Assembly (NCBI GenBank): GCA_016892645.1
Contig: JAFEMX010000001.1
Span: 434,001 to 498,000, forward strand
Reading direction: 5' to 3'
Source of the DNA: Micrococcaceae bacterium RIT 802
GTDB lineage: Bacteria; Actinomycetota; Actinomycetes; Actinomycetales; Micrococcaceae
Length of the DNA stretch: 64,000 nucleotides
Each line of letters begins with the position of its first letter. Position 1 is the first letter of the stretch. Positions 47,495 to 62,892 of this stretch are shown here, piece by piece. The notes under the pieces are model-generated. The model was not told the DNA's origin and made no database searches. It was given only the letters and a program-made list of their open reading frames with translations. The translations under genes and the position numbers were made by a program.

Positions 47495-48055
47495 ATGAGG
47501 CTGCGGCTGGCGGACGACGAGTGGGTGATCGTCAAGACCCGTGCGCACCGCCGCGTCCTGAACCGTCCCGCCGTCGTCTTCATCGTCGTTGCGGCCCTGA
47601 CCGCGTTCGCGATGGGAACGCTCACCCGCCGGGACCTGCCGCAGGCGGTGCTCGATACCGTGCCGCTGTTGCAGGTCGTGGTCCCGATCGTCGGAGCCGT
47701 CCTGCTGCTGGCCTGGTGCGTGATCCCGCTGCTTCGCTGGCGCCGGACCATCGTCTTCTTGACCAACCAGCGCATCGTCGTGCGCCGCGGCGTTACGGCG
47801 AAGAACCAATGGGAGTTGCCGCTGGCGTTCGTGCAGACCCTGCGCACCAGCCAGAAACTGCTCGAACGCGGCAGCGGCTCCGGCGCACTCGTGCTCGATA
47901 CCGCCCATGGGCCGGTGCGGCTGCCCCATCTGCCGCGGGTGGACCGCGTCCGGTCGCTGGTCGTGACGGCCATTGAGCATTTACCCAGATCCATCGGGTT
48001 CGATGGTGTAGATATTGGTACAGAGGAACGCGTGGATGGGATCGGACATGGATGA
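47495..48055 (+). CDS. Bacterial PH-domain (bPH_2/YdbS-like) membrane protein
   Basis: 186 residues. Two membrane helices (AVVFIVVAALTAFAMGTL; LLQVVVPIVGAVLLLAWCVI) precede a cytoplasmic bPH domain with TNQRIVVRRGVTAKNQWELPLAFVQTL, the conserved strand-turn of the YdbS family. Such proteins are envelope-associated with unknown ligand. The gene follows birA by 62 nt; its end overlaps the cyclase start (48036) by 20 nt, so translation may be coupled. Confidence 0.87.
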   Translation: MRLRLADDEWVIVKTRAHRRVLNRPAVVFIVVAALTAFAMGTLTRRDLPQAVLDTVPLLQVVVPIVGAVLLLAWCVIPLLRWRRTIVFLTNQRIVVRRGVTAKNQWELPLAFVQTLRTSQKLLERGSGSGALVLDTAHGPVRLPHLPRVDRVRSLVVTAIEHLPRSIGFDGVDIGTEERVDGIGHG

Positions 48056-49343
48056 TGGGCAAGCAGCCGGTGAGCAGGGAGCGGAGAATCCCGCAACCCC
48101 CGGCCAGGAGCCCACACCACAGACGGCCCAGCTGCCCATCGTGAACCCCGCGCAGGCGGGGGACGTCGGATCCGCTGACGTCGACCGGGCCCGGATCGCC
48201 GACCCGGAACCGCCGCGCACCAGCACCGGATCGCTGCCGGCGCTCAGCCCCGATGCCGGCCCGGAAACCCGGGCCCTGCCGCTGGCCCAGGCGCTCGAAC
48301 GCGAAAAGGTCAAGGAGTCCGCGCAGGGCCTGGAGATGCTCTTGCTCGGGGCCAAACGCACCATGCGCCGTCGCGACGTGGCCGCCGCCGCCGGCATCTC
48401 GCTGCTCAGCGCGCGCAAGCTCTGGCGTGCCCTCGGCTTCCCCAATCTGGGCGACGACGACGTCGCCTTCACCGAGAACGACCTCGAAGCACTGCAAACC
48501 ATCCTCGGCAATGTGCGCTCCTCCAACCTGACCGAAGAGGCCGCCGTCTCCATCACCCGCTCCATCGGCCAGATGACCGATCGCATGGTCGTCTGGCAGA
48601 TCGAGGCCCTCGTCGAGGACATGGTCCAGAACCAGGGCGTGAGCGACCCGGAGGCCCGCCGCCGGCTGGTCGACCGCCTCCCGGACCTGATCGAACCGCT
48701 GGAGAAGCTGCTGGTCTACTCGTGGCGCCGGCAGCTCAACGCCGCCGTCCACCGCCTGGGTGTCCGCGCCGAATCCGGGCTGGCCTCCAGCGAGGAGGGC
48801 CGCGACGGCAGCGAGGACGACGCCCCGCTGCCCCTGGCCCGCGCCGTCGGATTCGCCGACCTGGTCTCCTACACCTCCCTCTCGCGCCGCATGAACGAAC
48901 GCACGCTGGCGCAGATGGTGCAGCGCTTCGAGAACAAGTGCGCCGAGATCATCTCCATCGGCGGTGGGCGCCTGGTCAAGACCATCGGCGACGAGGTCCT
49001 GTTCATCGCCGAAACCCCCCAGGCCGGCGCGCAGATCTCGCTGGCGCTGGCCACGGAGTTCGCCAACGACGACTTCCTGCCCAAGGCCCGCGTCTCCGTC
49101 GTCTGGGGCCGGATCCTTTCCCGGCTGGGCGACGTCTACGGCCCCACCGTGAACCTCGCCTCCCGCCTGACGGCGCTCGCCGACCCCGGAACCGTGTGGA
49201 CGGACTCGGTCACCGCCGGCACCCTCGAGGGGGACAAGCGGTTCGTGTTGTCCCCACAGCCCACCACGCAGGTGCGCGGCTTCGGGGACATCAACCCCGT
49301 CGTGCTCTCCATGGGCGAGGGCGAGGGGCTCGTCCTCGACTAG
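48036..49343 (+). CDS. Class III adenylate/guanylate cyclase with Rv1264-like regulatory domain
   Basis: 435 residues. A Pro/Ala/Gly-rich disordered head (residues 1-75) precedes a helical regulatory domain with RRDVAAAAGISLLSARKLWRA and DDDVAFTENDLEAL, like the pH-sensing autoinhibitory part of M. tuberculosis Rv1264. The catalytic domain has the metal Asp in VGFADLVSYTSL and GDEVLFIAE, the substrate Lys in LVKTIGDE, and GDVYGPTVNLASRL with the transition-state Asn/Arg. A soluble cAMP-forming enzyme is most likely. ATG 48036 (GAGGA 8 nt upstream) is chosen over ATG 48048. It lies just before the giant surface genes. Confidence 0.9.
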   Translation: MGSDMDDGQAAGEQGAENPATPGQEPTPQTAQLPIVNPAQAGDVGSADVDRARIADPEPPRTSTGSLPALSPDAGPETRALPLAQALEREKVKESAQGLEMLLLGAKRTMRRRDVAAAAGISLLSARKLWRALGFPNLGDDDVAFTENDLEALQTILGNVRSSNLTEEAAVSITRSIGQMTDRMVVWQIEALVEDMVQNQGVSDPEARRRLVDRLPDLIEPLEKLLVYSWRRQLNAAVHRLGVRAESGLASSEEGRDGSEDDAPLPLARAVGFADLVSYTSLSRRMNERTLAQMVQRFENKCAEIISIGGGRLVKTIGDEVLFIAETPQAGAQISLALATEFANDDFLPKARVSVVWGRILSRLGDVYGPTVNLASRLTALADPGTVWTDSVTAGTLEGDKRFVLSPQPTTQVRGFGDINPVVLSMGEGEGLVLD

Positions 49344-49387: not shown

Positions 49388-49453
49388 GGGTGCTGGCCCA
49401 GTTCTGCGTCCTTTGGGGGGCACGGAAATAGACGGTGGATGAGGACCGAATAC

Positions 49454-52400
49454 ATGTCCCGATGGGGAGCGCGCCCTGGCAAGAGCACGGGCTTCAAGGC
49501 GGCGGCGGTTTCCGCGGTCTCGGCATTGGCCATCACCGGCGCCATCATCTACCCGGGATTCAAGACCGCGGACGTCGACCTGAACGACGGCGGTGTCTGG
49601 GTCGTGAACAAGACCCTGAACAAGATCGGGCACCTCAACTACCAGTCCAAGGTGCTCGACGGCGGTGTCCTGACGCCGCTGCCGGACTATGACCTTGAGC
49701 AGAACGCCGACAAGGTCTTCGTGCGCAACCTCGAGCAGGGCGCGTTGACGACGATCGATCCGGCCATGGTCCAGTTCGCCGACGACAACGCCCTTCCCGC
49801 CAACTCCTCCTTCTCCTATGGCACCGACGTCGTCTCGGTCGCCGACGCCGAGCACGGCATCGTCTACGCCACCGGCACCGGGGAACTGGGCAGTTTCGCC
49901 TCCCAGGACACCCCACCGCTGATCGACGCACAGGGCAAGGTCCTCACCGCCGTCGGGCAAAACGACCGGGTCTGGGCCGTGGACGTCGACGCCCAGCAGT
50001 TCATCAGCTGGACCCGCGAGCCTGACGGATCGTTCTCCCAGGAGTCGGAGAAGCACGTGGAGACGATCCCCGGCGGAGCCAAACTCCAATTGACCGTGGT
50101 CGGAGACACAGCTGTCCTCTTCGATGAAGGGGCGGGCACGGTGATCACTTCCGATGGCAAGACAACCACCGTCGTGGACCCTGCGGGTGGCAAGCTGCAG
50201 GCCGTCGGACCGGATGCCGACCACGTGGCGATCGCGTTGGGCAACAAGCTGGCGAACGTTCCTGTCGACGGCGGCGAGGCCGAGTACCTCCCCCTGGAAT
50301 CCAGCGGAACCGCCATCCAGCCGGTCCGCGTCGGCGAGTGCACCTACGCGGCATGGCAGGGCAATGCCGAATACCTGCGCGATTGCGATGACGACGGGCA
50401 GGACGTCGCCGAGCAGGTCCCGGAAATGCCCAGCACGGCCGAACTGCAGTTCCGGGTCAACCGCGACGTCGTCGTTCTCAACGACGTGGCCTCCGGTCAG
50501 GTGTGGCTGGTCAACGAGGGCATGCAGATTGTCAGCAACTGGAGCGACTTGGAGCCTCCCAAGGGCAAGGGCGAGGCGAAGAAGGAGGACTCCAAGGAGA
50601 TCACCGACGCCATCGAGTTGCCGAACCGCACCAAAGACAACAAGAAGCCGATCACCAAGCCCGACGACTTCGGCGTCCGTGCCGGCCGCACCACCGCCCT
50701 GCCGGTCTTGTTCAACGACGTGGATCCCGACGGCGACCTCCTCACTGCCGGTCTCAAGGGAAAACAGCCCTCGATCGGCACCCTGCAGCAGATCCACGAC
50801 GGCACCGGCTTCCAGCTCGTCGTTCCCGAGGACGCCTCGGGGCGGACCTCCTTCACCTATGAGGCGAACGACGGCCGCGGCGGTCGGGCCACCGGGACGA
50901 CGAATGTCCGGGTGGTTCCGGAGGGGGAGAACCACCAGCCCACGCAGGAACGCGTGACCACCCTGCGCGTCCAGCAGGGCGAATCCGTCACCCAGGACGT
51001 GTTGAGCGACTGGAAGGATCCGGACGGTGATGACCTGCAGCTGCTGGGAGGCTCCAGCGACGACAAGGACATTGTCCGGGTACGCCCCGACGGTGCGCTG
51101 ACCTTCCAGGACAACGGGAAGAAGGTCGGCCGCAAGGAGATCACCGTGCAGGTCTCCGACGGCCGCGAGGGGGCCCAGGGTCGCATTGTGGTGGAGGTCC
51201 TCGCCACATCGGCCACCCCGCCGGTGACCGCGACGGACCATGTGACCGCAAACGTCGGGGAGGAAGTGACTTTCTCCCCATTGGAGAACGACACCGATCC
51301 CAGCGGCACCGAACTGCGGCTGGCCAACGTCGAATCCGTGAACGGGCTTGAGTTGAAGGGCAACTCCGATACCGGAACCGTCACCATCCGCGGCCAGCGC
51401 ACCGGGACGTTCTACGCGAAGTACGTGGCCAGCAACGGGCCTGCCAGCGCCCCCGGTCTGATCCGCATCGACGTCAAGGACCCAGAGCAGAACTCCGGCA
51501 ACCCGGTCGCGGTGCGCGATGTCGCCCTGCTTCCGGCCGGTCAGGATGTGCTGGTCAACGTCTTGGGCAACGACTCGGACCCGGCGGGTGGCGTCCTGGT
51601 TCTCACCGGTGCCGAAGTGCCCGAGGACGCCCCGTTCACGGTCTCCGTCGAACGCAACAGCTTCGTGCGGGTCACCGATGTCCGCGGGCTGACCGAACCG
51701 ACCAAGGTCAAGTACACGGTCTCCAACGGCAATGGCGTCTCCACCGGTGAGATCAACGTGATCCCCGTCCCCGCACCACCGAAGCTCGACCCTCCGCGCC
51801 CGAATCCCGATGACGTCGTCGTCCGCGCCGGGGACGTGGCCACGGTCGACGTGCTGGAGAACGACGTGCACCCCAACGGGGCCGAGCTGACCTTGCGGCC
51901 GGGCCTGAAGGAAGCGGACCAGCTGGGCGAGGGGTCGCTGATCAGCGTGGCCGACGACACCGTCCGCTTCCGTGCCGGGGAGTTCGACGGCAAACCCCAC
52001 ACCGTCTCCGCCGTCTACACCGTCGCCGGCCCCGACGGGCAGGAGGCCAACGCCCGCGTGAACTTCCACGTCCAACCGGTGGATCTGGACTCGAATGCAC
52101 CGCCAACCCCGGAGCAGATCACCGGTCGCGTCTTCGCCGGTGGCACCACGGCCATCCAGGTCCCATTGGCGGGCATCGACCCGGACGGGGACTCGGTGAC
52201 CCTCGTGCAGTTGGGTGCGGCCCCCAAGCGGGGCTCGGCCAAGGTCAAGGGCTCATCCATCGAATACACCGCCAGCAAGACGGCCAGCGGGACCGACGTG
52301 TTCTCCTACGTCGTGGAGGACCGGTTGGGCGCACGGGCCACCGGCACGGTGATGGTCGGCATCGCCCCGCTGTCCTCGACCAACAATCCCCCGGTAGCCG

Positions 52401-55400
52401 TCAATGATTCCATCACCGTGCGGCCGGACCGCCCGGTTGCCGTAGATGTGATGGATAACGACACCGACCCGGACGGGGACCGCACGACGCTCGTCGATGA
52501 TCTGCGTGCCTCGGAGGGGGTCGACGCGAAGGTCGTCAACGGCCGCATCCAGGTCACCTCGCCGAAGGAAAAGGGCTCGCTGTCCATCCGCTACAACATC
52601 AGCGATGGGCGTGGTGGTACCGCCAGTGCGACGCTGACCGTCCAGGCCGACCCGGAAGCCCAGCTGTTGGCTCCCATCGCCCGCGATGACCGCGCATCCC
52701 TGCAGGAGACCGTGGGCAAGGACGAAGTCACGCTGCCGATCCTCGACAACGACGAGGACCCCGACGGGCGCGTCGATGACCTGACGGTCTCCCTGCCGGA
52801 CAAACCAAGCTCGGCCACCGTCACCGGTGACAACCAGCTCAAGGTCAAGGTGGGCGACAAGTCCCAGGTCATCGCCTACACGATCACCGACCAGGACGAA
52901 TTGACGTCCACTGCCTTCGCACTGGTCCCTGGAGCCGGCGGGGCCCGTCCGGTGCTGCGCAGCGACAAGGCGCAGGAGATCATGGCGGGGGAGACCCTCA
53001 CGCTCGATCTTGGGGACCTGGTCCAGGTCCGCGATGGCCACCAGCCGCGTCTGACCGACGAGAACAAGGTGACCTCGGTGCCGGAGAACGACGGCGAATT
53101 GGTCAAGTCGGCCACGGAGCTCACCTTCAAGGCCGACAGGGAATACTCCGGCACCGCCTCCGTCACGGTGGAAGTCACCGATGGCTCCGGTCCCGACGAC
53201 CGCGACGGACTCACCAGCGTGCTGTCCATCCCGATCAAGGTGCTGCCGCGTCCGGAGGACAACAAGCCCCCGACCATCCAGTCCAATTCGCTGGACGTCG
53301 CCCAGGGTGAGGACCCTGCGCGTTTGGATCTGAACCAGATCGCCAGCGATCCGGATCCCGACGACGCCGGGACGCTGGAGTTCTCTGTGGGCGAGCAGAA
53401 CATCGACGGCGTGGAGATCAAGCTGGTCGAGGGCAACGTCCTCACCGCCGAGGCGGGTGTGAACACTCCGAAGGGAACCAAGGGTGCGGTCAAGGTCTCG
53501 GTCACTGACGGGGAGAATGACCCGGTCTCGGCGAACATCGCGATCAATGTGCTCGCCTCCACCCGCGAGAAGCCCGTCGCCATCGACGACACCGTCACCG
53601 ACGCACACCAGGGCCGGACCGAGGTGGTCCCGGTGTTGGCCAACGACCACAACCCGTACGCGGAAGAGGGGCCACTGAAGATCATCGGCGCCACCGGGCA
53701 GCAGGGCGATGGGGGCGCCGAAATCCGCGGCGACCAGCTCGCCATCACCCCGGCGAAGGACTTCGTCGGGACCATGAGCGTCCAGTACACCATCGGGGAC
53801 GTGACCGAGGATCCCGACCGCCAGGCGACTGGCAACGTCACCCTCAATGTCAAGGGAAAGCCGGACGCCCCCGGACTGCCGTTGGTTGAGTCGGCGGGTG
53901 ACTCCCGGGCCGTCCTCAGCTGGGATGCGCCGTCGAACAACGGTGCTCCGATCGAGTCGTACACGGTCTCCGGGGACGGAGTGAAGCAGACCTGCCAGAC
54001 GACCACCTGCACGATCACGGGTCTGAAGAACGACCACGTTTACAACTTCACCGCCACCGCGACCAACGCCGTCGGCGAATCCGAGCCGTCGGCGGCCTCC
54101 GCGGACGCGCGCCCGGACGTCGAACCCGAGCAACCGGGGGCACCGACCGCGGCATCGGGCGACGAACAGGCCACCGTGAAATGGAACCGTCCCGCAAGCC
54201 GCGGTTCCGCGGTGACCGGATACACGTTGGAGGTCTCCCCGGCACCGGCGACCGGCGTTAGCCAGGTCACGGGCATCTCCGGGACCAGCCATACGTGGAA
54301 GGGACTGAAGAACGGGGTTGCCTATCAGTTCCGTGTCCAGGCCGTGAACAAGGCGAACAAACCGTCTCAATGGAGCACCTACTCCGCGTCGGTCATCCCG
54401 GCCGGCAAGCCGCTCCAACCGACAGCTCCTGTAGCGGTGCGGTCCCAGTCCAACGTCAACGGCGGCGTCGTCAACGTGGACTGGACCGAGCCGGACGACA
54501 ACGGTGCCCCCATCCAGGGCTACACGTTAAAGGTGCATGAAGGCGGCTCCGTGGTGCGGACCGTGTCTTCCAGCGAAACACAGCAGACGGTGACCGGGTT
54601 GAAGACCACTGGTTCCTACAGCTTCTCCGTCATGGCTAAGAACAAGGTGGGTACTTCGCTCGCGAGCGGACGTTCGACCGCGGTCACGCCGTATGGGCGG
54701 CCCAAGACGATCGGCAAACCCACGGCGGGCGCTACGGGGGCGAACAACAAGGTCAAGCTCTCGTTCAAGAAGCCCGGCGCCAACGGCTCGGCGATCACCG
54801 GATACCAGTATTCGACCGATGGCGGCGCCTGGAAGTCCATCGGTGGTCCCGGGTCCGTCATCACCACCAATGCCAATGGCGCATCCCATTCCTGGAGGAT
54901 TCGCGCCCTCAATGCCGCCGGGGCTGGTGACCCGAGCAGCGCCTCCAACTCGACCAGCTCCTATGGCCCGCTGCGCGACGGGGGTGGCCGGTCGGCCTCT
55001 CATGGAGATGACTGGATCAAGTTCGGATGGAATTCCAAGCCTGCCGACTACGCCAACGGGCGCAAAGTGACACTCGCTGCTTCCATCAGCGGAAGCTCGA
55101 CGACCAACGACGGCAGCGAACAAGTAGCTGTCGGCTGGGAAGAGACCCGGAAGTTGACCATCACGGTGAAGGACTCAGAGGGCCAAACCTTGTCCCGGTC
55201 CACAAGCGAGACCTCGAACCCGAAGCCGCCGCCGCCACCCAACCCGCGGGCCAAGACCCTGGCGGGGCAGCCGAAGTCCGGCTGCGGCAAGCAATGCACG
55301 CACTTAATGGTCGAGCTGACGGGGTTCACCAGGAACTACGAGGGAACCTGGACCGCCACCTGTTACGGCGACGGAGGACGAAAGAGAATCAGTGAATTCT

Positions 55401-55555
55401 CCACGCCGGTTACCGTTGATAAAGATGGGGCGGAGACCAAGCAGCTGAATTGCGCGCAACCCAGGAATAAAGACCTTCCCCTCAGCGTGAAGTTGACCAA
55501 GGGAGGCCTCACGGTCTGGTCCAACGAGGACTGGACCTGGCCCTACGCCGACTGA
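49454..55555 (+). CDS. Giant Ig-like/fibronectin III surface protein, copy 1
   Basis: 2033 residues. Residues about 17-38 are a signal anchor (FKAAAVSAVSALAITGAIIY), without a clear cleavage site. Residues about 45-360 look like a beta-propeller (LNDGGVWVVNKTL, DVASGQVWLVN); a Lys/Glu linker follows. Then come about eleven Ig/cadherin-like repeats of some 90-100 residues, marked by phrases such as VLFNDVDPDGD, PLENDTDPSG, VMDNDTDPDGD and VLANDHNPY, with Asp-rich turns suited to calcium. Four fibronectin III domains (53860-54960) and a degenerate fifth follow, then a PPPPPNP linker and a four-cysteine tip (GCGKQC, TATCYGD, QLNCAQP). The start ATG (GAGGA 8 nt before) matches that of copy 2. Role as surface adhesin is inferred. 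Confidence 0.9.
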   Translation: MSRWGARPGKSTGFKAAAVSAVSALAITGAIIYPGFKTADVDLNDGGVWVVNKTLNKIGHLNYQSKVLDGGVLTPLPDYDLEQNADKVFVRNLEQGALTTIDPAMVQFADDNALPANSSFSYGTDVVSVADAEHGIVYATGTGELGSFASQDTPPLIDAQGKVLTAVGQNDRVWAVDVDAQQFISWTREPDGSFSQESEKHVETIPGGAKLQLTVVGDTAVLFDEGAGTVITSDGKTTTVVDPAGGKLQAVGPDADHVAIALGNKLANVPVDGGEAEYLPLESSGTAIQPVRVGECTYAAWQGNAEYLRDCDDDGQDVAEQVPEMPSTAELQFRVNRDVVVLNDVASGQVWLVNEGMQIVSNWSDLEPPKGKGEAKKEDSKEITDAIELPNRTKDNKKPITKPDDFGVRAGRTTALPVLFNDVDPDGDLLTAGLKGKQPSIGTLQQIHDGTGFQLVVPEDASGRTSFTYEANDGRGGRATGTTNVRVVPEGENHQPTQERVTTLRVQQGESVTQDVLSDWKDPDGDDLQLLGGSSDDKDIVRVRPDGALTFQDNGKKVGRKEITVQVSDGREGAQGRIVVEVLATSATPPVTATDHVTANVGEEVTFSPLENDTDPSGTELRLANVESVNGLELKGNSDTGTVTIRGQRTGTFYAKYVASNGPASAPGLIRIDVKDPEQNSGNPVAVRDVALLPAGQDVLVNVLGNDSDPAGGVLVLTGAEVPEDAPFTVSVERNSFVRVTDVRGLTEPTKVKYTVSNGNGVSTGEINVIPVPAPPKLDPPRPNPDDVVVRAGDVATVDVLENDVHPNGAELTLRPGLKEADQLGEGSLISVADDTVRFRAGEFDGKPHTVSAVYTVAGPDGQEANARVNFHVQPVDLDSNAPPTPEQITGRVFAGGTTAIQVPLAGIDPDGDSVTLVQLGAAPKRGSAKVKGSSIEYTASKTASGTDVFSYVVEDRLGARATGTVMVGIAPLSSTNNPPVAVNDSITVRPDRPVAVDVMDNDTDPDGDRTTLVDDLRASEGVDAKVVNGRIQVTSPKEKGSLSIRYNISDGRGGTASATLTVQADPEAQLLAPIARDDRASLQETVGKDEVTLPILDNDEDPDGRVDDLTVSLPDKPSSATVTGDNQLKVKVGDKSQVIAYTITDQDELTSTAFALVPGAGGARPVLRSDKAQEIMAGETLTLDLGDLVQVRDGHQPRLTDENKVTSVPENDGELVKSATELTFKADREYSGTASVTVEVTDGSGPDDRDGLTSVLSIPIKVLPRPEDNKPPTIQSNSLDVAQGEDPARLDLNQIASDPDPDDAGTLEFSVGEQNIDGVEIKLVEGNVLTAEAGVNTPKGTKGAVKVSVTDGENDPVSANIAINVLASTREKPVAIDDTVTDAHQGRTEVVPVLANDHNPYAEEGPLKIIGATGQQGDGGAEIRGDQLAITPAKDFVGTMSVQYTIGDVTEDPDRQATGNVTLNVKGKPDAPGLPLVESAGDSRAVLSWDAPSNNGAPIESYTVSGDGVKQTCQTTTCTITGLKNDHVYNFTATATNAVGESEPSAASADARPDVEPEQPGAPTAASGDEQATVKWNRPASRGSAVTGYTLEVSPAPATGVSQVTGISGTSHTWKGLKNGVAYQFRVQAVNKANKPSQWSTYSASVIPAGKPLQPTAPVAVRSQSNVNGGVVNVDWTEPDDNGAPIQGYTLKVHEGGSVVRTVSSSETQQTVTGLKTTGSYSFSVMAKNKVGTSLASGRSTAVTPYGRPKTIGKPTAGATGANNKVKLSFKKPGANGSAITGYQYSTDGGAWKSIGGPGSVITTNANGASHSWRIRALNAAGAGDPSSASNSTSSYGPLRDGGGRSASHGDDWIKFGWNSKPADYANGRKVTLAASISGSSTTNDGSEQVAVGWEETRKLTITVKDSEGQTLSRSTSETSNPKPPPPPNPRAKTLAGQPKSGCGKQCTHLMVELTGFTRNYEGTWTATCYGDGGRKRISEFSTPVTVDKDGAETKQLNCAQPRNKDLPLSVKLTKGGLTVWSNEDWTWPYAD

Positions 55556-55631
55556 CCGTGGCCGGCCCGACGCACCGGGCCACCAGTTGCCTGAACGAAA
55601 GCTGGACATCTGCTGGTGACAGGCTGCGTGG

Positions 55632-55649
55632 ATGGGGAGTTCTCCCCAT
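55632..55649. promoter_or_regulatory. Palindrome before the second giant gene only
   Basis: ATGGGGAGTTCTCCCCAT is a perfect palindrome (8-bp arms, 2-nt centre) lying about 23 bp before the -10 TAGAAT at 55672-55677. The first copy has no counterpart upstream. It lacks a T-run, so it is not a terminator; an operator specific to copy 2 is possible. Confidence 0.45.
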
Positions 55650-55671
55650 GTCGCCGAATTCATCCATCCCT

Positions 55672-55677
55672 TAGAAT
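55672..55677 (+). promoter_or_regulatory. Candidate -10 (TAGAAT) for the second giant surface gene
   Basis: It is positioned as in copy 1 and gives an RNA leader of about 65 nt. It implies that copy 2 can be transcribed separately from copy 1. Confidence 0.5.
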
Positions 55678-55746
55678 CGACGGTGGCCGGTTCTGCGTCC
55701 CGTTGGGGGGCACGGAAGAACGCGACATTGATGAGGAAACCAGAAC

Positions 55747-58700
55747 ATGTCCCGATGGGGAGCGAACCCGGGCAAGAGCACGGGCTTCAAGGCGGCCGCG
55801 GTTTCGGTCGTCTCCGCTCTCGCCATCACCGGCGCCGTCATCTACCCGGGCTTCAAGACCGCCGACGTGGACCTGAACGACGGCGGTGTGTGGGTCGTGA
55901 ACAAGACCCTGAACAAGGTCGGGCACCTCAACTACCAGTCCAAGGTGCTCGACGGCGGTGTCCTCACGCCGCTGCCGAACTACGACCTCGAGCAGAACGC
56001 CGACAAGGTCTTCGTCCGCAACCGGGATCAGGGCGCGTTGACCACCATCGACCCTGCCATGGTCCAATTCGCCGACGACAACGCCCTACCGGCCAACTCC
56101 TCCTTCTCCTATGGGACCGACGTCGTCTCCGTTGCCGACGCGGACCATGGCATCGTCTACGCCACCGCCACCGAGGACCTGGGCAGTTTCGCCTCCCAGG
56201 ACACCCCGCCGCTGATCGACGCCAAGGGCAAGGTGCTCACCGCTGTCGGCGAGAACGACCGGGTGTGGGGCGTGGACATCGACGCCCAGCAGTTCATCAG
56301 CTGGACCCGCCAACCCGATGGGACCTTCACCGAGGAGTCGAAGAAGCAGGTCGACGGCATCGCCAGCGGTGCCAAATACCAGCTCACCGTCGTCGGCGAC
56401 ACCGCGGTGCTCTTCGACGAGGGCTCCGGCACCGTGATCACCTCCGACGGCAAGACGTCCACGGTGGTCGATCCCGCGGGTGGGAAGCTCCAGGCTCCCG
56501 GTCCGGATGCCGACCACGTGGCGATCGCGCTGGGCAACAAGCTGGCCAACGTTCCCCTCCGTGGCGGCGACGCCGAATACCTCCCCCTGGAATCCAGCGG
56601 AACTGCCATCCAGCCCGTCCGCGTCGGTGAGTGCACCTACGCGGCGTGGCAGGGCAGCGCCGAGTACCTCCGGGACTGCAACGACGACGGACAGGATGTC
56701 TCCCAGAAGGTCCCGGAAATGCCCAGCACGGCGGAACTGAAGTTCCGGGTCAACCGCGACGTCGTCGTCCTCAATGACGTGACGTCCGGGCAGGTGTGGC
56801 TCGTCAATGACGGCATGCAGATTGTCAGCAACTGGAGCGACCTGGAGCCCCCGAAGGGCAAGGGCGAGGCGAAGAAGGAGGACTCCAAGGAGATCACCGA
56901 CGCCATCGAACTGCCCAACAGGACCAAGGACAACAAAAAGCCCATCACCAAGCCCGATGACTTCGGCGTCCGGGCCGGCCGCACCACCGCCCTGCCGGTG
57001 CTGTTCAACGACGTGGATCCCGACGGCGACCTCTTGACCGCCTCGCTAGAAGGCAAACAGCCATCGGTGGGTACCTTGCAGCAGATCCATGACGGAACCG
57101 GTTTCCAGATGGTCGTTCCGGACGATGCCACCGGGCGGACCTCCTTCACCTATGAGGCGAACGACGGCCGCGGCGGCCAAGCCACCGGAACGGCGAACGT
57201 CCGGGTGGTACCCCAAGGGGAAAACAGCAAACCGACCCAGGAACGCGTGACCACCCTGCGCGTCCAGCAGGGCGAATCCGTCACCCAGGACATCCTCAGT
57301 GACTGGATCGATCCCGACGGCGATGACCTGCAGCTGCTCGGCGGCTCCAGCGAGGACAAGGACATCGTCCGCGTACGCCCCGACGGTGCACTGACGTTCC
57401 AGGACAACGGCAAGAAGGTCGGCCGCAAGGAGATCACCGTGCAGGTCTCCGACGGCAGGGAAGGCGCACAAGGCCGGGTCGTCGTCGAGGTCCTGGCGAA
57501 GTCGGCAACACCGCCGGTGACGGCCACCGATCACGTGACGGCCAACGTCGGGGAGGAAGTGACCTTCTCGCCGCTGGAGAACGACACCGATCCCAGCGGA
57601 ACCGAACTGCGGCTGGCCAACGTCGAGTCCGTGGATGGGTTGGACCTGAAGGGCAACTCCGATACCGGAACCGTCACGATACGAGGAAAGCGTACCGGGA
57701 CGTTCTACGCGAAGTACGTGGCCACCAACGGTCCCGCCAGCGCCCCGGGGCTGGTGCGCATCGACGTCAAGGACCCCGAGCAGAATTCGGGTAACCCCGT
57801 CGCCGTGCGCGACGTGGCCCTGCTCCCGGCCGGACAAGACGTCCTGGTCAACGTCTTGGGCAACGACACCGATCCGGCGGGTGGCGTCCTGGTGCTCACC
57901 GGCGCCGAGGTGCCGGAGGACGCCCCGTTCACGGTCTCCGTCGAACGCAACAGTTTCGTGCGCGTCACCGATGTGCGCGGGCTGACGGAGCCGACGAAGG
58001 TCCACTACACGGTTTCCAATGGGAACGGGGTCTCCACCGGGGAGATCAACGTGATCCCGGTTCCCGCGCCACCGAAGTTGGATCCGCCGCGCCCGAACCC
58101 CGATGATGTGGTCGTGCGCGCCGGAGACGTGGCCACGGTGGATGTGCTGGAGAACGACATCCACCCCAACGGGGCCGAGCTCACCTTGCGGCCTGATTTG
58201 AAGGAAGCGGATGGCCTCGGCGACGGCTCCTTGATCAGCGTCGCAGACGACACCGTGCGTTTCCGTGCCGGGGAGTTCGACGGGAAGCCACACACCGTCT
58301 CGGCCGTCTACACCGTCGCCGGACCGGACGGGCAGGAGGCCAACGCCCGCGTGAATTTCCACATCCAGCCGGTCGACGTGGCCTCCAACGCGCCGCCGTC
58401 ACCGGAACAGATCACCGGCCGCGTCTTCGCCGGTGGCACCACGGCCATCCAGGTGCCGTTGGGGGGAATCGACCCGGACGGGGACTCCGTGACCTTGGTG
58501 CAACTGGGTGGGGCGCCTCGGCTCGGATCGGCCAAGGTCAAGGGCTCATCCATCGAATACACGGCGAGCAACACCGCTTCGGGTACCGACGTGTTCTCCT
58601 ACGTCGTGGAGGACCGGTTGGGCGCCCGCGCGACCGGTACCGTCATGGTGGGCGTCGCCCCGTTGTCCTCGAAGAACAACCCCCCGGTGGCCGTCAACGA

Positions 58701-61700
58701 CTCCATCACCGTGCGGCCGGACCGTCCGGTCTCCGTCGACGTCATGTCCAACGACACCGACCCGGATGGGGACCGCACGACGCTGGTCGACGACTTGCGT
58801 GCTTCCGACGGCGTCGATGCCAAGGTCGTCAACGGTCGCATCCAGGTCACCTCGCCGAAGCAAAAGGGCTCGCTGTCCATCCGATACAACATCAGCGACG
58901 GCCGCGGCGGCACCGCCAGCGCCACGCTGACTGTCGAGGCGGACCCGGAAGCCAAGCTGCTGGCACCGATCGCCCGCGATGACCGGGCCAGCCTGCAGGA
59001 GACCGTCGGCAAGGACGAGGTCACGTTGCCTATCCTCGAAAACGACGAGGACCCCGACGGCCGGGTCGATGACCTGAAGGTCTCCCTGCCGGACAAGCCG
59101 GGCTCGGCCAGCGTCACCGGTGACAACCAGCTCAAGGTCAAGGTGGGCGACAAGTCCCAGGTCATCGCCTACACGATCACCGACCAGGACGATCTGAAAT
59201 CCACCGCGTTCGCGATCGTTCCCGGTGCCGGCGGCGCCCGACCCGTCCTGCGCAGCGACAAGGCCCAGGAGATCATTGCGGGGGAGACCCTCAGGCTCGA
59301 TCTCGGGGACCTGGTCCAGGTCCGCGATGGCCACAAGCCACGGCTGACCGATGAGAACAAGGTCAAGTCCGTACCGGAGAACGACGGCGAATTGGTCAAG
59401 TCGGCCACGGAACTGACCTTCAAGGCCGACAAGGAGTACTCGGGCCCCGCCTCCGTCACTGTCGAAGTCACCGATGGCTCCGGACCGGATGACCGGGACG
59501 GGCTCACGAGCATGCTCTCGATTCCGATCAAGGTGCTCCCGCGCCCGGAGGACAACAAGCCCCCGACCATCCAGTCCAACTCCCTGGACGTCGCCCAAGG
59601 TGAGGATGCCGCACGTCTGGACCTGAACCAGATCGCCAGCGACCCGGACAAGGACGACGCGGGCAAGCTCAAGTTCTCCGTGGGCGAGCAGAACATCGAG
59701 GGGGTCAAGGTCGGACTCGTCGATGGGCACATCCTCACCGCCGAAGCCGACGCCAAGACGCCCAAGGGCACCAAGGGGTCCGTCAAGGTCTCAGTCACCG
59801 ACGGACACAACGACCCCGTGTCGGCGAATATCTCCCTCAACGTGTTGGCCTCCACCCGCGAACTGCCCGTTGCCGTCGCCGATACGGTGGCAGATGCCCA
59901 CCAGGGCAGCAAGGTGGTCGTTCCCGTGTTGGACAACGACCACAACCCGTATCCGGAGGAGGGTCCGCTGAAGATCGTCGATGCCTTTACCGGAACCGGC
60001 GGCACCAATGGTGATGGGTCGGTCTCCGTCGATGGTGACAAACTCGCCATCACACCGAACGACGATTTCGTCGGGACCATGACCGTTCAGTACACGATTG
60101 CTGACGTGACTGAGGACGTGGATCGTCAGGTCAATGGAACGGTCACCCTGAACGTCAAGGGTAAACCGGATGCCCCTGGCTTGCCGTTGGTCGAGTCAAC
60201 CAGTGATTCCAAGGCCGTTCTCAGCTGGGATGCGCCGTCGAACAACGGTGCTCCGATCGAGTCCTACACGGTATCCGGCGACGGGGTGAAGCAGACTTGC
60301 CAGACCACCACCTGCACCATCACGGGTCTGAAGAACGACCATGTCTACAACTTCACGGTGACGGCGACCAATGCCGTCGGCGAATCGGAAGCCTCGGCGG
60401 CTTCCGCGGATGCCCGCCCGGACGTCGAACCGGAACAGCCGGGGGCGCCGTCCGCGACGTCTGGCGACGAACAGGCCACGGTGAGGTGGAACAAGCCGGA
60501 AAACCACGGCTCACCCGTCACCGGATACACCCTGGAGGTCTCCCCGGCACCGGCGACCGGCGTCAGCCAGGTCACGGGCATCTCCGGGACCAGCCATACC
60601 TGGAAGGGCCTGAAGAACGGGGTTGCCTATCAGTTCCGTGTCCAGGCCGTGAACAAGGCGGACAAACCGTCGCAATGGAGCACCTATTCAGCCTCGGTCG
60701 TTCCGGCAGGCAAGCCCTTCCAACCGACGGCGCCTGTCGCCGTGCGATCCCAGTCCAGCGTCAACGGCGGCGTCGTCAACGTCAACTGGAACGAGCCGAA
60801 CAACAACGGAGCCCCCATCCAGGGCTACACCCTCAAAGTCCACCAGGGCGGCTCGACGGTCCGATCGATCACCGTTGCAGCGGGGACGACCGATCAAACG
60901 GTGACCGGGCTGAAGACGACCAGTTCCTACACCTTCTCCGTCATGGCGAAGAACAAGGTCGGGACTTCTCCCGAGAGCGGACGTTCGACCGCGGTCACGC
61001 CGTACGGCAAGCCGCTCAAGGTCGGCAAGGTGACCGCCACGGCCACCGGTACAAGCGGCCAGGTTCGATTGAGCTTCACAGCCGCATCCTCCAACGGCTC
61101 TCCTATCCGTGAATACAAGTACCGGGCTGAAAGCGGCGCTTGGCAGTCGTTCGGAAATCGGACGTCCGGCACTATTTCCTCCAGGAACGGGGCACCACAT
61201 AGCTGGCAGGTGGCCGCCGTCAACGCCGCTGGCCAGGGGCCAGCAGGCTCATCCAATTCAACCAGTGCGTTTGGCCCGCCAAAGGACGCGGCTAATGCCA
61301 GTGGTAGCGGCGGAAAGAAATCAGCGACATTCAAATGGAACAAGACCGAAAGCGCCTACAACAACGGACGGAGCACGAAGCTCACCGCCAAAGTCAACAA
61401 GGGTACCTTGAACCAAACGACGGGCAAGGTAACAGGCTTAGGTGAAAGCGACACCGTGACACTCACCGTCACCGCGACTACCAAGCTCAACTCGGGTGAT
61501 CCGTCCAGCGCGTCCAGCAGCAGGTCATGGACTGCCTCGGCGAAAACCGATCCACCGCCACCGCCGCCGGCGCCGAAGAAACGAGTCGTCCTATCAAGGG
61601 GAGCAAAGGTGGAGCCCGCCAAATGCGAAGGCTCGAACAATTGCTACAGGTACCACGTGGAGGCCTACGATTTCCCGGATGGCAAATATGAGGGAAAGTG

Positions 61701-61866
61701 CATGGCACAGCCGCCGCACCAAGTCGGTTCGACGAAGGAAGGCCTCGAGGTGGTAAACGGGCGATTCAGCGGCGACTACTCCTGCTGGATCACCCCCGGG
61801 GCGATCAATGGTGCGCCCTTCTTCGCCTACTTCGGCGGAGTGAAATCCAATGAGACCAATTTCTAA
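55747..61866 (+). CDS. Giant Ig-like/fibronectin III surface protein, copy 2 (paralogue of copy 1)
   Basis: 2039 residues. The order of parts is that of copy 1: signal anchor, propeller (about 55875-56840), charged linker, about eleven Ig/cadherin-like repeats (56965-60155), four fibronectin III domains, Pro linker (61549-61575) and a four-cysteine tip (PAKCEGSNNCYRY, YEGKCMAQ, DYSCWITPG). By eye it matches copy 1 closely from the N-terminus through the second fibronectin domain, then diverges; the tip keeps only the cysteines and YEG. Its gene ends 48 nt before moxR, so it is the copy linked to the ATPase. The ATG has GAGGA 9 nt upstream, as in copy 1. Anchored to the membrane and extended outward by inference. 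Confidence 0.9.
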   Translation: MSRWGANPGKSTGFKAAAVSVVSALAITGAVIYPGFKTADVDLNDGGVWVVNKTLNKVGHLNYQSKVLDGGVLTPLPNYDLEQNADKVFVRNRDQGALTTIDPAMVQFADDNALPANSSFSYGTDVVSVADADHGIVYATATEDLGSFASQDTPPLIDAKGKVLTAVGENDRVWGVDIDAQQFISWTRQPDGTFTEESKKQVDGIASGAKYQLTVVGDTAVLFDEGSGTVITSDGKTSTVVDPAGGKLQAPGPDADHVAIALGNKLANVPLRGGDAEYLPLESSGTAIQPVRVGECTYAAWQGSAEYLRDCNDDGQDVSQKVPEMPSTAELKFRVNRDVVVLNDVTSGQVWLVNDGMQIVSNWSDLEPPKGKGEAKKEDSKEITDAIELPNRTKDNKKPITKPDDFGVRAGRTTALPVLFNDVDPDGDLLTASLEGKQPSVGTLQQIHDGTGFQMVVPDDATGRTSFTYEANDGRGGQATGTANVRVVPQGENSKPTQERVTTLRVQQGESVTQDILSDWIDPDGDDLQLLGGSSEDKDIVRVRPDGALTFQDNGKKVGRKEITVQVSDGREGAQGRVVVEVLAKSATPPVTATDHVTANVGEEVTFSPLENDTDPSGTELRLANVESVDGLDLKGNSDTGTVTIRGKRTGTFYAKYVATNGPASAPGLVRIDVKDPEQNSGNPVAVRDVALLPAGQDVLVNVLGNDTDPAGGVLVLTGAEVPEDAPFTVSVERNSFVRVTDVRGLTEPTKVHYTVSNGNGVSTGEINVIPVPAPPKLDPPRPNPDDVVVRAGDVATVDVLENDIHPNGAELTLRPDLKEADGLGDGSLISVADDTVRFRAGEFDGKPHTVSAVYTVAGPDGQEANARVNFHIQPVDVASNAPPSPEQITGRVFAGGTTAIQVPLGGIDPDGDSVTLVQLGGAPRLGSAKVKGSSIEYTASNTASGTDVFSYVVEDRLGARATGTVMVGVAPLSSKNNPPVAVNDSITVRPDRPVSVDVMSNDTDPDGDRTTLVDDLRASDGVDAKVVNGRIQVTSPKQKGSLSIRYNISDGRGGTASATLTVEADPEAKLLAPIARDDRASLQETVGKDEVTLPILENDEDPDGRVDDLKVSLPDKPGSASVTGDNQLKVKVGDKSQVIAYTITDQDDLKSTAFAIVPGAGGARPVLRSDKAQEIIAGETLRLDLGDLVQVRDGHKPRLTDENKVKSVPENDGELVKSATELTFKADKEYSGPASVTVEVTDGSGPDDRDGLTSMLSIPIKVLPRPEDNKPPTIQSNSLDVAQGEDAARLDLNQIASDPDKDDAGKLKFSVGEQNIEGVKVGLVDGHILTAEADAKTPKGTKGSVKVSVTDGHNDPVSANISLNVLASTRELPVAVADTVADAHQGSKVVVPVLDNDHNPYPEEGPLKIVDAFTGTGGTNGDGSVSVDGDKLAITPNDDFVGTMTVQYTIADVTEDVDRQVNGTVTLNVKGKPDAPGLPLVESTSDSKAVLSWDAPSNNGAPIESYTVSGDGVKQTCQTTTCTITGLKNDHVYNFTVTATNAVGESEASAASADARPDVEPEQPGAPSATSGDEQATVRWNKPENHGSPVTGYTLEVSPAPATGVSQVTGISGTSHTWKGLKNGVAYQFRVQAVNKADKPSQWSTYSASVVPAGKPFQPTAPVAVRSQSSVNGGVVNVNWNEPNNNGAPIQGYTLKVHQGGSTVRSITVAAGTTDQTVTGLKTTSSYTFSVMAKNKVGTSPESGRSTAVTPYGKPLKVGKVTATATGTSGQVRLSFTAASSNGSPIREYKYRAESGAWQSFGNRTSGTISSRNGAPHSWQVAAVNAAGQGPAGSSNSTSAFGPPKDAANASGSGGKKSATFKWNKTESAYNNGRSTKLTAKVNKGTLNQTTGKVTGLGESDTVTLTVTATTKLNSGDPSSASSSRSWTASAKTDPPPPPPAPKKRVVLSRGAKVEPAKCEGSNNCYRYHVEAYDFPDGKYEGKCMAQPPHQVGSTKEGLEVVNGRFSGDYSCWITPGAINGAPFFAYFGGVKSNETNF

Positions 61867-61914: not shown

Positions 61915-62892
61915 ATGACCATGACCAACGACCAGGCCGAGTGGTTTGCCGGCACGTTCGAGAAGCTCTCGGCCAACGTGGGGCAGGCAGTGCTCGGCAA
62001 GCAGGACGTGATCAAGTTGATCCTCACGGCCATGCTCTCCGAGGGACACGTGCTGCTCGAAGACGCCCCCGGAACGGGCAAGACCATGCTGGCCCGGTCG
62101 CTGGCCGCCACGGTGCAGGGGTCGAACTCCCGCATCCAGTTCACCCCCGACCTGCTGCCCTCCGACGTCACCGGCATCACGATCTACGACCAGAAGACCC
62201 AGCTCTTCGAGTTCCACCAAGGGCCGATCTTCGCGAACATCGTCCTGGCGGACGAGATCAACAGGGCCTCCCCGAAGACCCAGTCCGCGCTGCTGGAGGT
62301 CATGGAGGAGTCTCGGGTCAGCGTCGATGGCAAGACCTACACGCAGGACCGCCCGTTCATGGTCATCGCCACCCAGAACCCCATCGAGCAGGCCGGCACC
62401 TACCGGTTGCCCGAGGCCCAGCTGGACCGCTTCCTCATCAAGACCTCCATCGGCTACCCGGACCGCGAATCCACCGTGAGTCTGCTCTCCGGCGCCTCGA
62501 CCCGCGACCGGTCGCTGGCCCTCAAGCCGATCATCACCACCGGCGCCATCGCCGACATGGCCGACCTGGCCACCACCACCCATGTGGACGACTCGGTGCT
62601 GCACTACATCGCCGAGCTCACCGAGCAGACCCGCGAGGCCCCGGAAACCCGCCTCGGGGTCTCCGTCCGCGGCGCCCTGGCCATGGTCCGCGCGGCCAAG
62701 GTGTGGGCGGCCTCCGAGGGACGCAACTACGTGCTGCCCGACGACGTGAAGGAACTCGCACCCTTTGTGTGGACCCACCGGTTCGTGATGGACCCGGAGG
62801 CGGAATTCTCCGGCGCGACGGCCGACTCCGTGCTGGCACGCGTCCTGGTCGAGACCGCGGCACCCCAGCAGCGCTCCGGCGCCCACGCCTAG
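61915..62892 (+). CDS. MoxR-family AAA ATPase
   Basis: 325 residues. Walker A is EDAPGTGKTMLARS, Walker B VLADEINRASPKTQSAL, sensor motif ATQNPIEQAGTY and the MoxR lid PEAQLDRFL. MoxR ATPases act as chaperones that assemble or activate partner proteins; DUF58 proteins are their usual partners. The start has AAGGGA and ATG at 61915, with a second ATG at 61921. It follows copy 2 of the surface gene by 48 nt and precedes DUF58 by 27 nt, so it is probably in one operon. In bifidobacteria a related fn3-aaa-duf58 order exists. Confidence 0.95.
   Translation: MTMTNDQAEWFAGTFEKLSANVGQAVLGKQDVIKLILTAMLSEGHVLLEDAPGTGKTMLARSLAATVQGSNSRIQFTPDLLPSDVTGITIYDQKTQLFEFHQGPIFANIVLADEINRASPKTQSALLEVMEESRVSVDGKTYTQDRPFMVIATQNPIEQAGTYRLPEAQLDRFLIKTSIGYPDRESTVSLLSGASTRDRSLALKPIITTGAIADMADLATTTHVDDSVLHYIAELTEQTREAPETRLGVSVRGALAMVRAAKVWAASEGRNYVLPDDVKELAPFVWTHRFVMDPEAEFSGATADSVLARVLVETAAPQQRSGAHA

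Follow-up and report, generated by a model that had tools for sequence, protein, structure and literature searches.

The window analysed here, a stretch of 64,000 nucleotides from the forward strand of Micrococcaceae bacterium RIT 802 (assembly GCA_016892645.1, contig JAFEMX010000001.1, positions 434,001 to 498,000), carries two adjacent genes on the same strand, A and B, of 2033 and 2039 codons, which are separated by 191 nt. Both proteins consist, in order, of an N-terminal membrane anchor, a beta-propeller, eleven immunoglobulin-like (Ig-like) domains, four fibronectin type III-like (FN3) domains, a further beta domain, a proline-rich linker and an end domain with four cysteines; we refer to the part from FN3-4 onward as the tip and to the conserved part before it as the stalk. 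On our analysis, the pair probably represents tandem paralogues of a giant FN3 surface protein whose operon resembles the PFNA operon of Bifidobacterium, with B as a mosaic; the tip would act as the ligand binder.

Divergence between the two genes

The original prediction had described duplicated genes in which the stalk is conserved and the tip changes, and the comparison of A with B bore this out. Amino acid identity is 88% in the propeller, 89–98% in Ig1–Ig9, 81% in Ig10, 71% in Ig11, and 94, 89 and 82% in FN3-1, FN3-2 and FN3-3, after which it falls to 48% in FN3-4, 29% in the next domain and 33% in the four-cysteine end domain. The drop coincides with the border between FN3-3 and FN3-4, and uniform divergence over the full length, which had been named in advance as counting against the prediction, was not seen. 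The extent of the divergent part had been overestimated, however: instead of the last 350 or so codons it comprises about 285, starting at about codon 1749, and a second dip in identity lies at Ig10–Ig11. Over codons 1–1680 the two proteins are 90% identical, with proportions of synonymous (pS) and nonsynonymous (pN) differences of 0.40 and 0.056, whereas over codons 1760–2033 the identity is 33%, pS is 0.66 and pN is 0.51. A ratio of nonsynonymous to synonymous rates above 1, indicative of positive selection, was not seen in the tip, where the A–B value of pS is near saturation.

The silent sites of the two genes also differ between stalk and tip. At fourfold-degenerate sites in unchanged residues, the difference between A and B rises from 0.36 in the stalk to 0.56 in the tip (Fisher p 0.0013). 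In B, the GC content at third codon positions (GC3) drops to 0.72 around Ig11 and to 0.64–0.76 in the tip, compared with 0.78–0.92 elsewhere. The tip of A is about 62–64% identical to that of Arthrobacter rhombi, a member of the same genus, but only about 35% identical to that of B.

The source genome is a draft of 3.87 Mb in 38 contigs, a state of assembly that could in principle produce a false duplicate, and the window lies inside a contig of 619 kb. However, about 14% of the stalk bases differ between A and B, and the tips differ far more; because of the difference in the stalks, the pair is not an assembly duplicate. Comparable pairs are also present in eleven relatives that were assembled as one contig. 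We therefore rule out an assembly duplication, to which we give next to no chance. A and B are the only copies in this genome, and no further copies of the four-cysteine domain were found in it.

Conflict between the trees of stalk and tip

Approximately unbiased (AU) tests were performed region by region on A, B, the A. rhombi gene, the gene of a metagenome-assembled genome (MAG; G002, the third member of the genus) and ten outgroups. The propeller, Ig401–900 and FN3 regions favour the grouping of A with B (AU p 0.0005–0.046 for the alternatives), although the protein-level test of the propeller is not decisive. In the full tip, A groups with A. rhombi and the MAG, and B falls outside; the grouping of A with B is rejected (AU p 0.018 for protein and 0.039 for DNA). 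A mixture model on the tip gives a p value of 0.034 for A with B and a support of 100/99 for A with A. rhombi and the MAG. This conflict between tip and stalk in the AU tests is the pattern of a gene-converted or recombined pair. Counts of shared sites among A, B and A. rhombi point in the same direction: in the stalk, 427 sites are shared by A and B and 220 by A and A. rhombi, while in the end domain the numbers are 33 and 68 (p 3e-10 for the reversal). These trees and counts show the propeller and most of the stalk coalescing within the lineage of the source species, after the split from A. rhombi; the tip, from FN3-4 to the four-cysteine domain, appears not to coalesce there.

The prediction of a single adhesin that was duplicated and then changed at its binding end only is thus right in that A and B are paralogues, but it is too simple, given the position of the B tip outside A, A. 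rhombi and the MAG, and the odd codon composition of B at Ig11 and in the tip. Because the tip trees place B outside and B contains these two stretches of odd composition, it is more likely that the B tip is older than its stalk or was imported into it.

Several observations weigh against a mosaic B. Silent divergence is likewise higher in the tip than in the stalk between A and A. rhombi and between A. rhombi and the MAG. The Ig901–1275 region leans towards A with B without full rejection of the alternatives, and Ig1276–1500 is undecided. The branch of the B tip is very long (2.2–2.5, compared with a median of 0.16), so that long-branch attraction is possible, and the test does not reject an origin of the B tip inside the genus (p 0.24). 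Finally, a donor for the B tip was sought in 395 genomes of the family and 396 of the order, and the best match was only 43% identical.

In a plainer history, A and B would stem from a tandem duplication that took place recently, once A. rhombi had split off, and the B tip would then have changed very fast as selection was relaxed or diversifying, without any need for recombination. Such a history accounts for the single copy in A. rhombi, for a stalk divergence between A and B (pS 0.40) that is below that between A and A. rhombi (0.54), and for the homology of about 95 nt upstream of A to the last 95 nt or so of the A–B intergenic region. It also agrees with the finding that in many orthologue pairs, single-copy orthologues included, the tip outpaces the stalk in evolution by a factor of 2–5. 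Because the tips of single-copy orthologues also diverge fast, duplication is not what permits tip divergence. We nevertheless consider this history unlikely, since the two tips are rejected as sisters (p 0.018–0.034), the ratio of tip to stalk divergence is 10.9 for A and B but about 2.5 for A and A. rhombi, and the silent sites and GC3 of the B tip, together with the second dip at Ig10–Ig11, depart from it. Overall, the tree conflict, the fourfold sites and GC3 combined make a mosaic B more likely than simple drift, though some doubt is left.

Gene conversion and cassette exchange among relatives

Gene conversion had been suggested as what keeps the two stalks alike. In the family, conversion is real. 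The twin genes at locus L068 share a 5' tract of 1,060 nt without a single difference (100% identity), against an identity of 43–66% (about 55%) elsewhere; this tract shows gene conversion at work. The twins at L071 are 98.6% identical across 1,164 nt and those at L090 are 99.0% identical across 581 nt; at L077, in a one-contig genome, the first 120 or so codons of the twins are identical and the tips go down to 32–63%. In A and B themselves, only a mild decrease in fourfold difference was seen in the first 150 codons (0.25 vs 0.36).

The C-terminal ends show a different form of exchange. In a trio of genes from group g19, those of genomes G087 and G046 share a stalk that is about 97% identical (92–98% in the FN3 part), whereas in the end domain it is G046 and G020 that are 87–96% identical, the end domain of G087 being 53–70% identical. 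Informative sites divide 350 to 71 in the stalk and 10 to 112 in the end domain (Fisher p 4e-54; 1e-58 with the other partition), which shows that the cassette at the C-terminus was transferred from species to species. At least one conflict between stalk and tip was found in 7 of 12 orthologue groups, including that of A and B. Many triples were tried for these p values, which are uncorrected; the strongest would survive any correction. Taken together, the alignments show that the family gene behaves as a mosaic, with 5' regions overwritten between twins by conversion and C-terminal cassettes passing between species.

Copy number in the genus and family

A. rhombi has one copy, located between a 462-aa frame and moxR; the frame is about the same size as the cyclase-domain gene upstream of A. 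In the MAG, contig C105 ends inside the tip of the gene and contig C28 starts at codon 25 of moxR, and this break between tip and moxR makes the MAG uninformative on copy number. Breaks at these two points are such as strain-variable tips in the sample could give.

A match to the head was present in 69 of 149 Micrococcaceae genomes, and 26 of the 69, the source genome included, have two or three copies inside about 15 kb, as counted from the listed positions; eleven of these multi-copy genomes are single-contig assemblies. The single-copy orthologues of A. rhombi, Glutamicibacter, Paeniglutamicibacter and Citricoccus are orthologous over their full length, and the A. rhombi gene occupies the same site before moxR. 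Unlike the source genome, A. rhombi and most of the others have one copy; the A tip is orthologous to theirs and the B tip is near none of them. In other Micrococcaceae genera (g8, g10, g19, g24, g25 and g30), ancient twins and triplets of the gene lie head-to-tail about 6.3 kb apart and resemble A and B in their diverged tips and, in some, 5' gene conversion. They differ from A and B in that the stalks are usually only 45–60% identical, most of the relatives' pairs being old, and in that many have an end domain of another type (type II, see below).

In the stalk tree, A and B fall with the single genes of g1, g20, g22 and g23 and also with those copies of g8, g25 and g30 that come second, on the moxR side. 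This placement bears on a special case of the mosaic origin, in which the pair is older than the genus, the stalks were repeatedly converted and B was lost in A. rhombi. Old tandem pairs are common in neighbouring genera, where conversion tracts are directly seen, and the break between tip and moxR in the MAG leaves room for a second copy. However, the stalk of B is of the class formed by the single genes of g1, g20, g22 and g23, not of that formed by the upstream copies in g8, g25 and g30, and conversion across about 5 kb would be required. This history is hard to tell from import of a tip. We regard an ancient pair as rather improbable.

Additional tandem pairs with much lower identity were observed outside the source genus in Agromyces sp. 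Root81 (L017) and Arthrobacter sp. VKM Ac-2550 (L010). Frames of merely 1693 and 1407 residues at L060 6878–11957 (G101) and L063 9683–13904 (G095) may be pair or triplet members in decay, and the longest homologous frame of all, with 2440 residues, is at L095 2108–9428 (G019). By description, the leptospiral Lig proteins, which belong to a different phylum, are similar in being Ig-like-domain surface proteins present in more than one copy (PMC7821625).

Domain architecture

Both frames were found where the original prediction had placed them, and the propeller, the eleven Ig-like repeats and the FN3 domains that they were said to share were recovered by an AlphaFold model of the head, by motif count and by Pfam, respectively. 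The N-terminal residues of A and B look by eye like a membrane anchor. The head model is a beta-propeller with a predicted local distance difference test (pLDDT) score >90 across much of the propeller, and it matches solved structures of NirF, YVTN and BamB-type propellers; the assignment of a propeller is supported by this model. Of the eleven Ig-like repeats counted by motif, 10 in A and 9 in B are picked up by Pfam Big_9, and Pfam marks three FN3 stretches in each protein. In A, FN3-1 to FN3-4 occupy residues 1469–1838 and are followed by the beta domain, the linker and the four-cysteine domain of about 100 residues. Both proteins score above the curated cut-offs of PF17963 Big_9 (A 294 bits, B 274 bits; cut-off 23.6) and NF012211 tand_rpt_95 (A 141 bits, B 136.6 bits; cut-off 90), and NCBIfam assigns them to the tandem-95 repeat proteins. 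The coordinates are listed in Table 1.

Table 1. Positions in the window of genes A and B, their domains and the flanking genes
Feature	Position	Strand	Remarks
Adenylate/guanylate-cyclase-domain gene	48015..49343	+	upstream of A
Gene A, giant surface protein	49454..55555	+	2033 codons; start ATG 49454
A propeller region	49589..50488	+	residues 46–345; 88% identical to B
A Ig-like repeats 1–11	50657..53857	+	residues 402–1468; motif count
A Ig10–Ig11	53279..53857	+	second divergence dip (81%, 71%)
A FN3 domains 1–3	53858..54697	+	94, 89, 82% identical to B
A tip (FN3-4, beta domain, Pro-rich linker, four-Cys domain)	54698..55552	+	Cys 1944, 1948, 1970, 2000
A–B intergenic region	55556..55746	+	
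Gene B, paralogue of A	55747..61866	+	2039 codons; same stalk, different tip
B tip	61021..61863	+	layout as in A; Cys 1960, 1966, 1985, 2013
moxR-type AAA ATPase	61915..62892	+	first gene of downstream cluster

The four cysteines that had been noted in the tip are present in both A and B, but they are not special to the pair, since the end domain is shared with many relatives across the family. A YEG motif said to be kept in the tip did not hold up: it occurs at residue 1962 of A and 1981 of B, 8 and 4 residues before the third cysteine, in non-homologous alignment columns, and is absent from most relatives, so the agreement is coincidental. In the end domain, the four cysteines and a GVxSN-like motif persist while the remainder changes. 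Two types occur in the family: type I, to which the domains of A and B belong, and type II, whose final cysteine is at or near the C-terminus. The type II domain, which likewise has four cysteines and is found in g8, g10, g19, g24, g25 and g30, carries a WY...GRYV motif and looks by eye like SH3b. A search of the four-cysteine domain against solved structures by sequence gave no significant match, and the AlphaFold model of the tip matched only generic FN3 chains among solved structures.

Upstream regions

The ribosome-site-like sequence GATGAGGA precedes both starts, as predicted, but a promoter of each gene's own is unproven, no sigma-70-type promoter having been found upstream of A or of B. 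The start of A was set at 49454 because the other ATG, at 49439, falls within the ribosome-site-like GGATGAGGA and because the protein start MSRWG is kept in B and in A. rhombi. An inverted repeat, TGGGGAGTTCTCCCCA, is present in the intergenic region upstream of B and absent upstream of A; it also occurs before the single A. rhombi gene and, for the most part, before the MAG gene (L003 9860–10010; L055 10740–10885), and is possibly a regulator site.

Gene neighbourhood and likeness to the PFNA operon

Directly downstream of B, the gene order is moxR (AAA_3/bpMoxR), DUF58, transglutaminase (Transglut_core and TgpA_N), RDD, PP2C, FHA and a Ser/Thr kinase, which by eye has one transmembrane segment; beyond moxR, the cluster lies mostly outside the window. 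Long frames with related tips are present in several families of the order. The PFNA operon has been described as confined to Bifidobacterium in the papers on it. As in that operon, the giant gene is followed here by moxR AAA, DUF58 and transglutaminase genes in this order, and PP2C, FHA and kinase genes are in the cluster (PMC10688814, PMC8430577). The FN3 protein of B. longum GT15 has 1,994 aa, with FN3 domains at 1,494–1,671 and then a C-terminal region of about 320 residues (PMC10688814); A and B likewise have about 2,000 aa, an N-terminal transmembrane segment, FN3 domains near residues 1,500–1,670 and a C-terminal region. The differences are that the kinase (pkb2) heads the PFNA cluster, whereas here it comes last, with RDD, PP2C and FHA ahead of it on the 5' side; that a cyclase-domain gene precedes A and an RDD gene is added; and that there are two tandem copies and four FN3-like domains. 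A text search of two of the PFNA papers gave no mention of duplication, and one paper reports no recombination.

The placement of A and B in the PFNA family is argued from architecture and gene order, and it is better supported that the proteins work like the PFNA protein than that they are formal members of the family. The kind of protein to which the duplicated pair belongs was already known; what is new here is evidence from across the family that 5' regions are converted and tip cassettes exchanged, together with the presence of a PFNA-like cluster in Micrococcaceae.

Implications for function

The adhesion role proposed for A and B is inferential, the nearest studied relative being the Bifidobacterium FN3 protein. 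According to the same B. longum study (PMC10688814), a fragment consisting of FN3 and the C-terminal region bound TNF-alpha in vitro and either half alone did not; cytokine-receptor motifs and TNF-alpha binding are reported for the Bifidobacterium protein only. In the arrangement that we propose, the anchor and propeller would lie at the membrane, the Ig/FN3 rod would cross the wall, and the tip would bind an external ligand, which may be a surface, a neighbour cell, a wall polymer or a phage. The stalk of B would have come from A by duplication or conversion, or that of A from B, and the tip of B would be an older paralogous tip or an import by recombination. Two tips on one scaffold may then broaden the range that is bound. 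A location of the specificity of surface recognition in the last 285 or so residues would fit both the anatomy and the exchange of end cassettes.

Alternatively, the end domain could serve in wall attachment or assembly rather than as a ligand-binding tip and be only weakly constrained, and the whole protein could be an envelope-maintenance factor of the MoxR/transglutaminase system. Its conserved link with moxR, DUF58, transglutaminase, PP2C, FHA and kinase genes points to a part in the envelope machinery and in signalling, and the SH3b-like appearance of the type II end domains is in line with it. However, the retention of four cysteines and a GVxSN-like motif while the remainder changes, and the exchange of whole cassettes, are unlike simple decay, and we consider this alternative rather unlikely.

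With the present findings, the Bifidobacterium PFNA protein, which has been tied to host cytokines, stands beside a much wider set of similar actinobacterial clusters. A tentative extension, which we put at somewhat below even chances, is that PFNA-type FN3 proteins form a widespread actinobacterial recognition system, in which the scaffold is held fixed by conversion between twins and binding cassettes are traded between species; A and B would then be a case of a fresh second specificity. Conversion of the 5' regions of twins and exchange of tip cassettes provide a concrete evolutionary mechanism, which predicts where specificity would lie and supplies pairs of tips for binding tests.

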